Positions 16,615 to 22,980 of a stretch of 64,000 nt of DNA are shown here, one piece after another. The notes beneath the pieces were generated by a model. That model saw only the letters and a program-made list of their open reading frames with translations, made no database searches and was not told the origin of the DNA. This DNA is from Natrinema saccharevitans (GTDB lineage: Archaea; Halobacteriota; Halobacteria; Halobacteriales; Natrialbaceae). The position numbers were made by a program, and so were the translations under genes. Each line of letters starts with the position of its first letter. Position 1 is the first letter of the stretch. The stretch spans positions 558,001 to 622,000 of the forward strand of contig NZ_LWLN01000001.1 in the NCBI RefSeq assembly GCF_001953745.1, read 5' to 3'.

Positions 16615-17075
16615 TCACCACGGAGAGAGCGCCCGCAGTCCGCTGCCGACCAGCCCGCCGACGAGTCCGTCGATGGCGGCCAGCAGCGAGAAGGCGGCGG
16701 CCAGCAGGACGACGCTCGGAAGCCCGAGCCCGGAGAGCCCCGGACTGATCGGCCCGATCGAGGAGAGGACGAACAGCGGCGGTTCGGTTACAGCCCTGTG
16801 AGAGCGCCGAGAAACGCCATGAAAAATCCCGCGAGGCCGCCGACGAGCGCGCCCGCGACCACCGCGTACGCGAGACCGGTCACGACCCGTCCGGCGGCGT
16901 AGGCGGCGATAAACCCGGCGACGATGCCACCGCCGACCCGGGTCAAGACAGGGACCAGAAGGGAGGTGAATGAAACGAATACCCCGACGGCGGCGGCCCC
17001 GAGGACGAGTCGCGAGTCGATCGTCGCCAGCGACGGCGCGTACTCCTCGTCGTCGTTCGTCTCGCGGTCGCTCAT
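16615..17075 (-). pseudogene. DUF5518-like four-helix membrane protein, frameshifted
   Basis: The frame from 17075 codes 95 residues with three hydrophobic segments and stops at TAA 16788-16790. Shifting frame at the stop continues the protein for 58 residues from 16791 to TGA at 16615, adding a fourth helix and the Gly-rich end LVGGLVGSGLR typical of these proteins. No start codon lies before the second part, so one lost base in GGGCTGTAACC explains it best. The start overlaps the stop of the secreted protein gene by ATGA. DUF5518 is assigned by pattern and memory. A sequencing error is possible. Confidence 0.65.
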
Positions 17076-17833
17076 GGATCGATCACCCGCTCGTCACTGT
17101 CGCTGCCGTCCGTCGATCGGCCTCGCGGCCGCGCTGGCGTCTCCGCGTCGTCATCGTCGACCGCAGTGGTGGTCGCGGTCGCCGTCTGATCACCGCCGGT
17201 CCGACTCCCGCTATCGGACTCGTTCGACGGTTGATCCCCGACCGAATCGCTCGTGGTGTCGTCGCTTTCGTTGCCCGAGCCGTCGTTTTCGTCGGCCAGG
17301 TCATCGGTCTCGTTACTTCGACTACCGGTTTCGCTGCTCCGGTCGTCACCGTCGCCCTGTCCGTCGGTTTCCTGCGGTGGGTCGAACGGAATCGGTTCGG
17401 GGACGTCGCGTTTCGGGCCGACATCGACGGTGTATCCGGCGACGGAGAAGTTACGCAACTCGACCGAGCGGGCGTCGACGACGACGTCGGTTCGCTGCGC
17501 CGTGAAACACTCCTCGGCCGCCGCGAGGTCGTTGAGCGTCGCGTTTCGTCGGTCCGTTCGTAACACGATCTCCCCCTCGGCGGACCGCGTCTCCCCGAGT
17601 TCGACGCGTCTGGTCTCGTCGAGGTGGATCGTGACGTTCCCGTCCTCGTTTCGAACGACGATTCGGTTGGTGTCCGACGTGAGTCGCTCGACGCAGACGG
17701 TCGCGCCCTCGGCCGTACCGAGATCGCCCGTAATGGTTTGCCCGTCGGCCTGACCGGCCACGTGGGACGGCCCGACCAAGGCACCACCGGGGGCGACTGC
17801 GACCACGACGGCGAGCGTACCGGCCCGTATCAT
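17072..17833 (-). CDS. Secreted acidic protein with Ser/Asp/Glu-rich tail (unknown)
   Basis: A 253-residue protein that I do not recognise. It has an N-terminal signal peptide (about 1-28, hydrophobic stretch AGTLAVVVAVAPGGALV), a beta-rich domain (about 30-155) with two Cys and repeated short VRNEDGNVTIHL/IVLRTDRRNATL-type strands, then a low-complexity tail of about 95 residues rich in Ser, Asp, Glu, Asn and Gly. The tail looks like a cell-wall spacer but there is no C-terminal membrane helix or PGF sorting motif. It lies 37 bases after the DUF6114-like gene and overlaps the DUF5518-like gene by four bases, so it is the third gene of a four-gene envelope operon. Confidence 0.7.
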   Translation of the reverse strand: MIRAGTLAVVVAVAPGGALVGPSHVAGQADGQTITGDLGTAEGATVCVERLTSDTNRIVVRNEDGNVTIHLDETRRVELGETRSAEGEIVLRTDRRNATLNDLAAAEECFTAQRTDVVVDARSVELRNFSVAGYTVDVGPKRDVPEPIPFDPPQETDGQGDGDDRSSETGSRSNETDDLADENDGSGNESDDTTSDSVGDQPSNESDSGSRTGGDQTATATTTAVDDDDAETPARPRGRSTDGSDSDERVIDP

Positions 17834-17870
17834 GCGTCGCGGCGGTCCCTCGGTCGACGTCGTCTCGTCG

Positions 17871-18467
17871 TCACTCGTCGGTCTCCCGCCGTTTGATGCG
17901 TTCGATGCCCGCACGACAGCGCAGGAGGATCGCTCCGACGACGCGAGCGAACCCCGCGTCGATCCGGGCCGCGATTTTGTCGACGACGCTCGGGTCCGAG
18001 ACGGCGTCGTCGACGGCCTCGTCGCGTGGCTTCCAGACGAGACAGAGGTTACCGCCCAAGATGCCAAGCAGCATGCCGACCAGCAACCCGCCGAGGGATC
18101 CGAACAGCGAGAGTATCGACAGGACGGTCCCGACGACGCCGGCCACGTCGGCACGCGCAGGCGTGACAAGCACGCAGACCCCCGTCAGGAAGACGAACAC
18201 GCCGAACAGGGCACCGATCGCGAGAAAACCCGCCATCTGTCCGCCGATGAAGGCGAGATCCGGCAGGATCTGCATCGGTACCCAGGTGAGCAGGATTCCG
18301 GCCAGACACAGCAGGAGCCCACCGAGGAACGGACGTCCGGCCCGCCAGGCGTTGAACCGCCCCTATCGGGATCCAAGCCACTGACTGACTCCGCCCAACC
18401 GGCTCCTGACCCGCGCGAGACGTGTGTCGGACTCGCCTGACCGTTTTCGGGCGACATGGGAGATCAC
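17871..18467 (-). pseudogene. DUF6114-like membrane protein with in-frame amber codon
   Basis: A GTG at 18467 overlaps the DUF6230-like stop as GTGA. The frame reads a basic N-terminus ending SQWLGSR, then TAG (18363-18365, codon 35), then GRFNAWRAGRPFLGG and about 150 residues with four hydrophobic segments ending at 17871. RFxAWRxGRPFxGG is the DUF6114 opening as I know it from actinobacteria. The downstream part has only a late ATG (18275), which would delete the first helix. TAG is a normal stop elsewhere in this window (pyrE, thrS, nfo), so read-through is unlikely. Nonsense mutation or sequence error are the alternatives. Confidence 0.7.
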
Positions 18468-19075
18468 CCGTCGGGGTGGTACTCCACGTCGACGTCGAGA
18501 CCGGGGAGTGAGATCTCGTTCGAGGCGGGATACACCGCTTCCAGCTCGACGTCTTCCTGTACCATTCCGGGACGCTCCCCGGAGATGTTCGTGAGGTAGC
18601 CGTCCTCGGGCTCGGCGTTTCCGCCGGCCGTCTGCTGGAACTGCTGTTCCGGATTGTCGGTCGCCTGAGCGTTGACGACCTGTCCGTTGAACGTAGCCTC
18701 TTCCGCTTTCAAGTCGGTGAGTTTGATGTACTGCTCGTCCGCTTTGACCGTCCCGTCGGCGGCGAAGGAGATTTCCATCGAGCCGTCGATCATGGGTATC
18801 GACTTCTCGCCGCTCAGTACCATACCGTCGATCTCGACGCCGCGCTGTTCGACGACGGCGACCGGCGTCGTCCCCTCGGTATTCTCCCCGATGCTGGGAT
18901 AGAGGAGGAAGTCGTCCGATCTGATCTCGTCGGCCGTGACGGTAAAGCCGCTGCCACTGGCAGTGGCCATCGCCGTCGCGTAGGCCGTCCCCGACGAGAG
19001 GACGACGAGACCGACGAGGGCGACGACCAGAAACGACACGCCGGTCCCGGTCGCGAGTCGCTTTCGGCGATACAT
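18464..19075 (-). CDS. DUF6230-like exported protein
   Basis: A 203-residue protein with a basic N-terminus (MYRRKRLATGTG) and one signal/anchor helix (about 13-35), followed by a beta-rich ectodomain. The pattern FTVTADEIRSDDFLLYP, a later TPVAVVEQRGVEIDGMVL, and EQYIKLTDLKAEEATF matches actinobacterial DUF6230 proteins (FxVxADxL...F..Y, ...PVAV...I..M, LYIDVDDLxADATF) as I recall them. It is the first gene of an operon with the DUF6114-like gene (GTGA overlap), a pairing also seen in actinobacteria. Function is unknown; an envelope-exposed protein anchored or handled by DUF6114 is the natural guess. Confidence 0.72.
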   Translation of the reverse strand: MYRRKRLATGTGVSFLVVALVGLVVLSSGTAYATAMATASGSGFTVTADEIRSDDFLLYPSIGENTEGTTPVAVVEQRGVEIDGMVLSGEKSIPMIDGSMEISFAADGTVKADEQYIKLTDLKAEEATFNGQVVNAQATDNPEQQFQQTAGGNAEPEDGYLTNISGERPGMVQEDVELEAVYPASNEISLPGLDVDVEYHPDG

Positions 19076-19635
19076 ACTAGACCCACCCCGAACGATCGGT
19101 TCGGCGACCTTCGTTCTATTCGCTGCGCTCACACCGTGTCCGCTCCGATATCGCGGCCTCATTTCGAACGCCACAAGTCCACACCCAACACGACCCCCAA
19201 TTATTTTTCCTCTTTGTATACAGGAATATTTATAACTATCAGGCAGGGAATATTATGGCTACGATGGATGTCTGTAAATCGGGAAAGGACGCCGTCCGTT
19301 CGTGGAGAGTCGAACTATCGTTATTCTGTGCGGTCATAAATGGCCGTGGAAACGCGGGAAAACGCCTATCGGACCGAATCGCTCGTATCGGACCATGCGA
19401 ACGGACCGAACTGGAATCGACGGTCACATCGGTTCTCGTTCCAAGTTCGAGTCGAGTTCTCGAGGCTCGCGAGACGATGCCGACTGTCGCGGCGACACCA
19501 CCGACGAATCGACCGCCGGCGCGGCAACGGGAGCGCGACGGTCGCGTCGGCGCGCGGTTCGATAGCGATCCGGCGATATTCTATCCAAACAACCGATACT
19601 GAAAAATACCTGTTCGATGTCGTGACTGTCGAACG
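19076..19635. other. Intergenic region with promoters, no convincing gene
   Basis: The minus strand near 19075-19110 is the promoter side of the DUF6230-like operon and contains a CCGAAC/GTTCGG hairpin (19089-19105). On the plus strand TATTTATAACT (about 19227-19237) is followed by an ATG at 19255 that opens 115 codons. The product is basic, Arg/Pro-rich and poor in Asp/Glu, so I doubt it is a protein. Confidence 0.4.
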
Positions 19636-20234
19636 ATGATATACGCGAAATGTGTTCTCATTCCTGATGCCGAGGGATTGCACCCGCTCGATCGACGGAT
19701 CGCCGAACACCCGAACGTCACGCGTGAACTCATCTACAACGTCAACCTCTCGCCGACGAGTCGATCCTGTCGTCGTCGATGACCAACCAGTACCAACTCT
19801 CGAGCGCCGACGGCGAACACCACGCCTACATTCACCTCGAGGCCGGCGACCGGCTCGTCGGGCTGTTGAGCATGCTCAGGGAGTTCGAGTTCATTTACGA
19901 TACGCCCCTCGAGTTCACGCGCCGCGGCGGCCTCCGGGTCACGATGATCGGTGACGTACAAAGCTTTCAGAAGGCCGTTCCGGACGTTCCCGACGGGATC
20001 AGGCTCAAACTCCTCAAGACGGGCCGGTACGAACCGAACACGGACCGGCTGTTCTCCCAGTTGACCGGTCGCCAACAGGAGATCCTCCGGACCGCCGTCG
20101 AGATGGGATACTACGACGTTCCGCGGGCGGTGACACACGGGGACATCGGCGAGGCGCTGGGCTGTACCGGAGGGACAGTCGGCGGCCACCTGCGACGGAT
20201 CGGGGCGACGCTGCTTACCCAGATCGTTCCCTGA
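19636..20234 (+). pseudogene. Bat-type HTH (HTH_10) regulator, frameshifted
   Basis: ATG at 19636 opens MIYAKCVLIPDAEG...YNVNL, the usual start of bacterio-opsin-activator-like regulators, but the frame stops at TGA 19780-19782. One base shift near 19749 (CTCTCGCC, expected CTCCTCGCC) restores ADESILSSS and runs into the frame that ends at 20234. The rest carries the sensor-like region and a C-terminal HTH_10 domain with LTGRQQEILRTAVEMGYYDVPR and LGCTGGTVGGHLRR. The full protein would be about 199 residues. It precedes an ABC-2 exporter that it may have controlled. A start at 19779 would remove the N-terminus. Confidence 0.75.
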
Positions 20235-22175: not shown

Positions 22176-22275
22176 GAGTCGGTCGTCGCGGTCCGAGTCC
22201 GCCCTGAGACGCCGCGCGCCGACGATCCCGTCGCTACCATATCGAGTTCGGGGCCCAAACGAGCGTCCGATATCA

Positions 22276-22980
22276 CAGGAGCGGCTGCAGCGCCACCAGA
22301 TCGCCGTCTACGCGGTCGCGATCGCACGGGATCGGGGCTGGGACGACCGTCTGCAGCGTCGATCTTCCAGCGACTCATCACGCCCGTGCTGGCGGTGTTG
22401 CTGTCCGCGGCCTTCGTCCGGTTTCGCGCCGCGATCACCAACAGCCGGTTCATAGACGGCGCGCTCGTGCTGACCTTCCTCGTCGTCCCCGTCGTCTACG
22501 GGCTCACTCGATTCCTCCCGAACGAGCCCGTCGTTCTGGTCGGCGCGTCCATGGTGTTGTTGACGCCGCGTATCGACTACGTGATCGCGTTCACCGACCT
22601 CGCCGGCGGCGACGCCGGCCTGCTGCTCCTGCAACTGCTGTTTCTGCCCGTGTATCTCTGGCTGTTCAGGGCCGAGAGGGATCGCGACCGCCGTCGAACC
22701 CGGCCCCTTCCTCGAGGCATTTCTCCTGTTGATCGCCGTGCCGCTGGCGCCGGCGTGGCTCACCGAGATCGGAGCGACCGGCTCGCCGACCGCCCGCTGC
22801 TGGCAGTCGGCGATGGGGTGGCTTCCGGTTCCGATGATGGTGCGACCCTGCTGGTCGTGATCGCCTCGCAGCTCCCGCGGGTTCGGGGCTCGATCGAGGG
22901 GGATCGCGGCCGTCGTCCCCGTTCACGTCGCCTTTCCGGTCGTCATTTTCCACGAGGGGCGCGCGGAGCTATTTCCTCAT
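22276..22980 (+). pseudogene. ACR3-family arsenite efflux transporter, degraded remnant
   Basis: Pieces in three frames read in order as an ACR3/bile-acid-symporter-like protein: QRHQIAVYAVAI (22285-), LITPVLAVLLSAAF, RFIDGALVLTFLVVPVVYGL, VLLTPRIDYVIAFTDLAGGDA, VEPGPFLEAFLLLIAVPLA, SAMGWLPVPMM and LLVVIASQLPR. At least three frameshifts or short deletions separate them, and the last third of the gene is missing. The essential Cys of the TPCIDYV motif has become Arg (CGT near 22570). It cannot make a working pump. It follows the ABC-2 exporter genes on the same strand. Confidence 0.8.

Follow-up and report, generated by a model that had tools for sequence, protein, structure and literature searches.

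Gene content of the locus

The window, i.e. the whole stretch of DNA analysed, comprises 64,000 nt of the Natrinema saccharevitans genome (GCF_001953745.1, contig NZ_LWLN01000001.1, positions 558,001–622,000 of the forward strand). It contains a module that in haloarchaea is a unit of five genes, namely genes 1–4 on the reverse strand and a divergent regulator gene on the forward strand. The preliminary description delimited a four-gene unit and overlooked the regulator, which co-occurs with gene 2 (DUF6114) and gene 4 in congeneric genomes.

Gene 1 (18464..19075, reverse strand) is an intact frame of 203 amino acids. In agreement with the earlier recognition of a DUF6230 pattern, Pfam matched residues 40–198 to PF19741 (DUF6230) with 48.7 bits (cut-off 27.5, E = 1.3e-12), the single such match in the genome. 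Hydropathy and the AlphaFold (AF2) model indicate a Sec-type signal or transmembrane helix at residues 7–25, followed by a predicted exported all-beta domain; the model, all-beta behind one helix, has a pLDDT of 76.5 and a pTM of 0.73. Fold searches with the model gave no significant match in the PDB (best E of 0.029 with Foldseek and best Z of 3.8 with VIA), and a PDB sequence search with gene 1 gave no match. The single match obtained in the PDB with the Streptomyces protein was dismissed as chance. The dN/dS values of gene 1 between relatives (0.07–0.11) are like those of the flanking genes and indicate strong constraint. DUF6230 is patchily distributed and present in 20 of the 125 genomes of the family. 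A second, divergent type of DUF6230 locus exists in the same genus (L040–L049); it often includes DUF6114, and genes for an HTH_10-type protein and an exported tail protein lie close by. Larger DUF6230 proteins were read by eye in L104 (10776–12761, 660 amino acids with five PKD-like repeats) and L105 (7188–8852, 553 amino acids with PA14-like inserts); such PKD-like or PA14-like proteins (L104, L105, L087, L106, and L107) lie within arrays of several DUF6230/DUF6114 genes.

Gene 2 (17871..18457, reverse strand) encodes a DUF6114 membrane protein and is broken in the window. Its readable domain (18362–17871, reverse strand) opens with GRFNAWRAGRPF and matches PF19609 (DUF6114) with 81.4 bits (cut-off 27.9, E = 9.2e-23), bearing out for this frame the assignment originally made from the opening RFNAWRAGRPF. 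It is the only DUF6114 match in the genome. The dN/dS among relatives is about 0.25, and the family is patchily distributed within the class (46 of 391 genomes).

Gene 3 (17072..17833, reverse strand; 253 amino acids, intact frame) was characterized by composition, by same-place homologues in 15 loci, and by dN/dS. It had been described as a secreted protein with an acidic Ser-rich tail, and the sequence does begin like a signal peptide and end in a tail rich in Ser, Thr, Asp, and Glu (30% D/E and 27% S/T in the last 103 residues). The small domain carries two conserved cysteines, invariant among relatives. The constraint on gene 3 is the weakest in the module (dN/dS of 0.37–0.65). Homology with DUF6230 was not supported, and the fold matches of a low-confidence model (best E of 0.036, galectin-like) were taken as chance. 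In L036, L085, L091, and L098, the gene 3 tails contain amphipathic-looking repeats (e.g. TVDDTTD or HTEETV) and 12–28 N-x-S/T (N-glycosylation) motifs per protein.

Gene 4 belongs to a four-helix membrane protein family distantly related to DUF5518. Alignment with relatives divides the window copy into an N-terminal part of 95 amino acids ended by a frameshift (16788..17075, reverse strand) and a remainder in another frame with 57 codons and a stop but no start of its own (16615..16788, reverse strand). The earlier label "DUF5518-like" holds through the relatives, 10 of 21 of which match PF17647 (DUF5518) at E ≤ 0.1 (best 8.6e-7), but not for the window copy, which has no Pfam match; its description as a small pore-like protein was not supported. 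The dN/dS of gene 4 is about 0.15.

The gene boundaries were also revised. In intact relatives, gene 2 begins at an ATG a few bases past the gene 1 stop, and 38 nt separate the gene 2 stop from the ATG at which gene 3 begins. The window's GTG at 18467 leads into an in-frame TAG (18365–18363) and the GTG at the gene 2 stop is out of the gene 3 frame. Of the overlaps originally proposed, the ATGA between genes 3 and 4 is real, whereas the GTGA overlaps are not true starts. Likewise, the range 16615–19075, presented as continuous genes, reads through the gene 2 lesions and the gene 4 frameshift.

The regulator (19636..20234, forward strand) contains HVO_0513_N and HTH_10 domains in relatives and, by comparison with them, is broken in the window. 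Its orthologues share 71–100% identity within the genus, and the next best sequences reach about 44% or less. The open-licence literature yielded nothing on HVO_0513. On the 5' side of gene 1, an element of ~60 nt (19170..19234, reverse strand) with a TATA-like box (19234–19228) and two blocks (19221–19200 and 19192–19170) shows nucleotide-level conservation in most of 22 genomes of haloarchaea. The genome of the window holds no other copy, each block half being present once. This uniqueness fits a dedicated regulator site, and the element is likely to be either such a site or a 5' UTR element. A leader peptide was rejected: an indel or stop breaks the block in some species, and the synonymous sites of the core do not vary.

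Decay of the window copy

The preliminary description took the operon to be intact, which did not hold for this genome, where genes 2 and 4 and the regulator are all interrupted. Alignment with five close relatives located two lesions in gene 2: one base is missing near 18436, and the TAG mentioned above lies just before RFNAWRAGRPF. The gene is uninterrupted in L026–L031 and other relatives. In gene 4, the same comparison revealed a one-base deletion leading to a stop at 16788, after which the second half runs on in another frame to 16615. The regulator has lost 49 nt after 19750, its N-terminal domain being cut to positions 54–134, while the C-terminal 151 amino acids are still open from 19779; the two domains are not found in one intact gene.

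When 56 genes of the sister species (G062) were compared with the window, frame breaks were confined to the module with one exception, an in-frame stop very close to the end of a 181-amino-acid gene. No frame break was found in ~46 matched genes outside the module (~41 kb, mostly 87–100% identical). Five G062 genes have no counterpart in the window or a remnant only; a short remnant of a 345-amino-acid G062 gene lies at 22234–22326. Four coding lesions within ~3.1 kb compared with none or one in 41 kb would arise from randomly placed errors with a probability of roughly 1e-4, by our own estimate from these counts.

There are two other accounts of the lesions. Errors of assembly or base-calling, with an operon that is in reality intact, are improbable: single-base changes make up three of the four coding lesions, as that account would have it, but the fourth is a 49-nt deletion, one of the three is a substitution that makes a stop, and the lesions are clustered in an assembly of 3 contigs that is 99.99% complete and leaves the ~41 kb of other compared genes without a frame break. 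Alternatively, genes 2 and 4 might be expressed by recoding, through a programmed frameshift or stop readthrough. Both parts of gene 4 can still be aligned and look constrained relative to the sister species (dN/dS of 0.14–0.18), which is compatible with continued translation; nevertheless, we regard recoding as extremely improbable, given the single uninterrupted frames in all relatives, the two obstacles that translation of gene 2 would have to pass (the frameshift and the stop), and a regulator that is broken as well. The lack of frame breaks in the ~46 other genes indicates that the module itself is decaying, and the constraint on its genes between relatives makes the decay look recent. 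The module thus appears to have been recently inactivated in this species, with the regulator and genes 2 and 4 broken and genes 1 and 3 readable. With its key parts broken, the window copy is a poor object of study.

Distribution in haloarchaea and actinobacteria

The order of genes 1–4 is shared by 15 haloarchaeal genomes (L027–L031, L033–L037, L039, L098, and L100–L102). The presence of genes 3 and 4 near other haloarchaeal copies had been named beforehand as one of the points on which the proposed unit could fail, and both were found there in the same order. The module is mostly flanked by the divergent regulator on one side and, in the genus of the window, by a convergent methyltransferase gene on the other. 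Gene 3 is missing at the otherwise complete operons of L032, L038, L096, L097, and L099, and is therefore not considered essential to the putative complex. Of 29 congener genomes, 18 have the regulator orthologue, DUF6114, and gene 4 together, and the other 11 have none of the three. For two genes, the chance of this co-occurrence is ~3e-8 as independent draws, the true figure being larger through shared descent; the perfect pattern is partly shared ancestry.

DUF6230 lies directly upstream of DUF6114 in 51 of 60 haloarchaeal cases (33 of 42 in loci picked by DUF6114 alone). This neighbour relation is seen in the relatives, and its counterpart in the window is the frame 18362–17871. Haloarchaeal fusions join DUF6114 to a DUF6230-type domain (L083 and L084; profile match of 92% over 152 columns) or to a gene-3-type protein (L080). 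Five loci (L081, L082, L086, L109, and L110) have DUF6114 domains without an adjoining DUF6230, some within proteins of 500–800 amino acids. In other haloarchaeal families, the cluster is situated in the region of the str operon, close to uS7 and EF-2 or between them (L083, L084, L085, L087, L090, L104, and others; genes named by eye).

The statement that the two families are neighbours in actinobacteria proved correct. They do so in Rhodococcus annotation, at 75 of 85 actinobacterial loci, and for all six DUF6114 genes of one Streptomyces genome, each of which directly follows DUF6230. DUF6230 was found in 19 of 296 actinobacterial genomes. A secreted C-terminal domain is fused to DUF6114 in 77 of the 85 loci and is a separate third gene in others: DUF6230 stands beside the fusion in 68, no separate DUF6230 was recovered by the gene caller used in 9, and the remainder consist of three separate genes (3), the pair only (4), and one missed by the BLAST used. 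Contrary to what had been proposed, a secreted third protein is accordingly not a haloarchaeal addition. Homology between gene 3 and the actinobacterial third domain was not supported, and the match of that domain to DUF6230 was weak (33%).

Sequence similarity links the two groups. By BLAST, a deep actinobacterial pair (L245) matched haloarchaea with E values of 2e-27 and 2e-25, and the profile match between Streptomyces and haloarchaeal DUF6230 was 97% over 172 columns. The Streptomyces loci were sought with two approximate sequences as bait, and the conclusions were drawn from the database sequences found. The main locus contains a thioredoxin-TPR protein, DUF6230, DUF6114, and a third secreted protein, followed by pyruvate kinase and acetate kinase genes on the other strand; the third protein shows homology with the fused domain (97%, 129 columns). 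The S. coelicolor genes SCO5419 and SCO5423 are a thioredoxin gene (PMC7244524) and pyk2 (PMC7494193), respectively. Because exactly three genes lie between these two, SCO5420 is assigned to DUF6230 by synteny with five Streptomyces loci. SCO5420 is called a cholesterol esterase and was upregulated 37-fold on Tween (PMC7494193); the name is that of an actinomycete cholesterol-esterase family (PMC4098958). The preliminary description gave no function for any part; by this synteny, DUF6230 corresponds to a gene for which a function has been claimed.

Possible role and comparison with known systems

We consider it an even chance that the module of the intact relatives, judged from its genes and their neighbourhoods, encodes a regulated membrane-anchored surface complex with exported beta domains that bind a hydrophobic ligand or shuttle it. 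Within this proposal, the surface complex is likely and the ligand handling uncertain. DUF6114, a four-helix membrane protein, would serve as the membrane hub, holding DUF6230 and the exported domain of gene 3 at the outer face; the latter would be displayed on its long acidic spacer. In haloarchaea, gene 4 would join the unit as a second small membrane protein, and the divergent HTH_10 regulator would control the operon as its dedicated switch. The strongest support for a physical complex comes from the fusions of the membrane protein to exported domains in both groups. Most speculatively, the beta domains might act at the membrane surface by binding or shuttling a hydrophobic ligand, either external or of the envelope, an idea that derives from the Tween response of SCO5420 and the esterase claim.

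The main alternative to ligand handling is a role in surface structure or adhesion, in which DUF6230 would provide accessory S-layer or adhesin domains held by DUF6114, with no transport or enzymatic role. We rate it as possible though not probable: the haloarchaeal proteins with PKD-like repeats or PA14-like inserts and the long, acidic, sequon-rich gene 3 tails of four relatives are in line with it, but most DUF6230 copies are small and single-domain, and the PKD and PA14 assignments rest on reading by eye. An enzymatic module, in which DUF6230 would cleave lipid or sterol esters (the activity claimed for the actinomycete family) and DUF6114 would be the anchor, draws on the synteny with SCO5420 and on the abundance of S. 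scabiei "cholesterol esterase" proteins outside the cell (PMC5158115), whose link to DUF6230 is the shared name. The actinobacterial DUF6230 set conserves Ser48, His79, Cys95, Cys203, and several Asp, i.e. candidate catalytic residues and a Cys pair. Among 37 haloarchaeal sequences, the exported part has no Ser, His, or Cys that reaches 80% conservation, and the Ser, His, and Cys positions of the actinobacterial set lack a conserved counterpart; gene 1 of the window has a single His (residue 200, near the end) and no Cys. For these reasons, we do not call haloarchaeal DUF6230 an esterase and consider this activity unlikely. To our knowledge, haloarchaea contain no sterol esters as an obvious substrate; this and the poorly conserved polar residues also weigh against the proposed ligand handling. 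That the genes are functionally unrelated and neighbours by chance is very unlikely. In other families the cluster is placed between uS7 and EF-2 and its outer neighbours differ (L085), as such an account would allow, but the order is kept between Bacteria and Archaea, fusions have recurred, and co-inheritance is perfect.

Returning to the surface complex with hydrophobic-ligand handling, we tentatively suggest, with less than even confidence, that it represents an envelope machine conserved between actinobacteria and haloarchaea, in which a DUF6114 hub and two exported beta domains without a recognised fold would handle surface hydrophobics, under an HTH_10 switch of its own in haloarchaea. 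The families and the Streptomyces locus are already known as sequences. The literature on DUF6230/DUF6114 amounted to one passing mention, and neither the haloarchaeal arrangement, which includes gene 4 and a dedicated regulator, nor the three-part cross-domain core was found in the open-licence literature searched. The analysis ties two Pfam families of "unknown function" to a Streptomyces gene that has a name, a claimed activity, and a strong response to Tween, places the same core module in Bacteria and Archaea, and defines the five-gene haloarchaeal unit, regulator included, as one testable unit of which related archaea keep intact copies.

Compared with the Pfam families, gene 1 exceeds the curated cut-off of PF19741 and covers nearly the full profile but has neither the Cys pair nor the His that the actinobacterial set conserves. 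The gene 2 frame matches the full profile of PF19609, although the window copy is a broken gene, and some relatives are fused to exported domains. Relatives of gene 4 match PF17647 over its full span, weakly to moderately, while the window copy and its nearest relative fall below the cut-off. Like other HVO_0513_N/HTH_10 haloarchaeal regulators, the divergent neighbour of the operon has both domains in relatives; it forms a distinct orthologue group and is truncated in the window. The closest known locus, SCO5420-SCO5421-SCO5422 of S. coelicolor, identified by synteny, likewise carries DUF6230 and then DUF6114; its third product is secreted and contains a long spacer of low complexity. It differs from the haloarchaeal unit in that its third domain is not detectably homologous to gene 3, gene 4 is absent, and a TetR gene is located nearby instead of an HTH_10 regulator.
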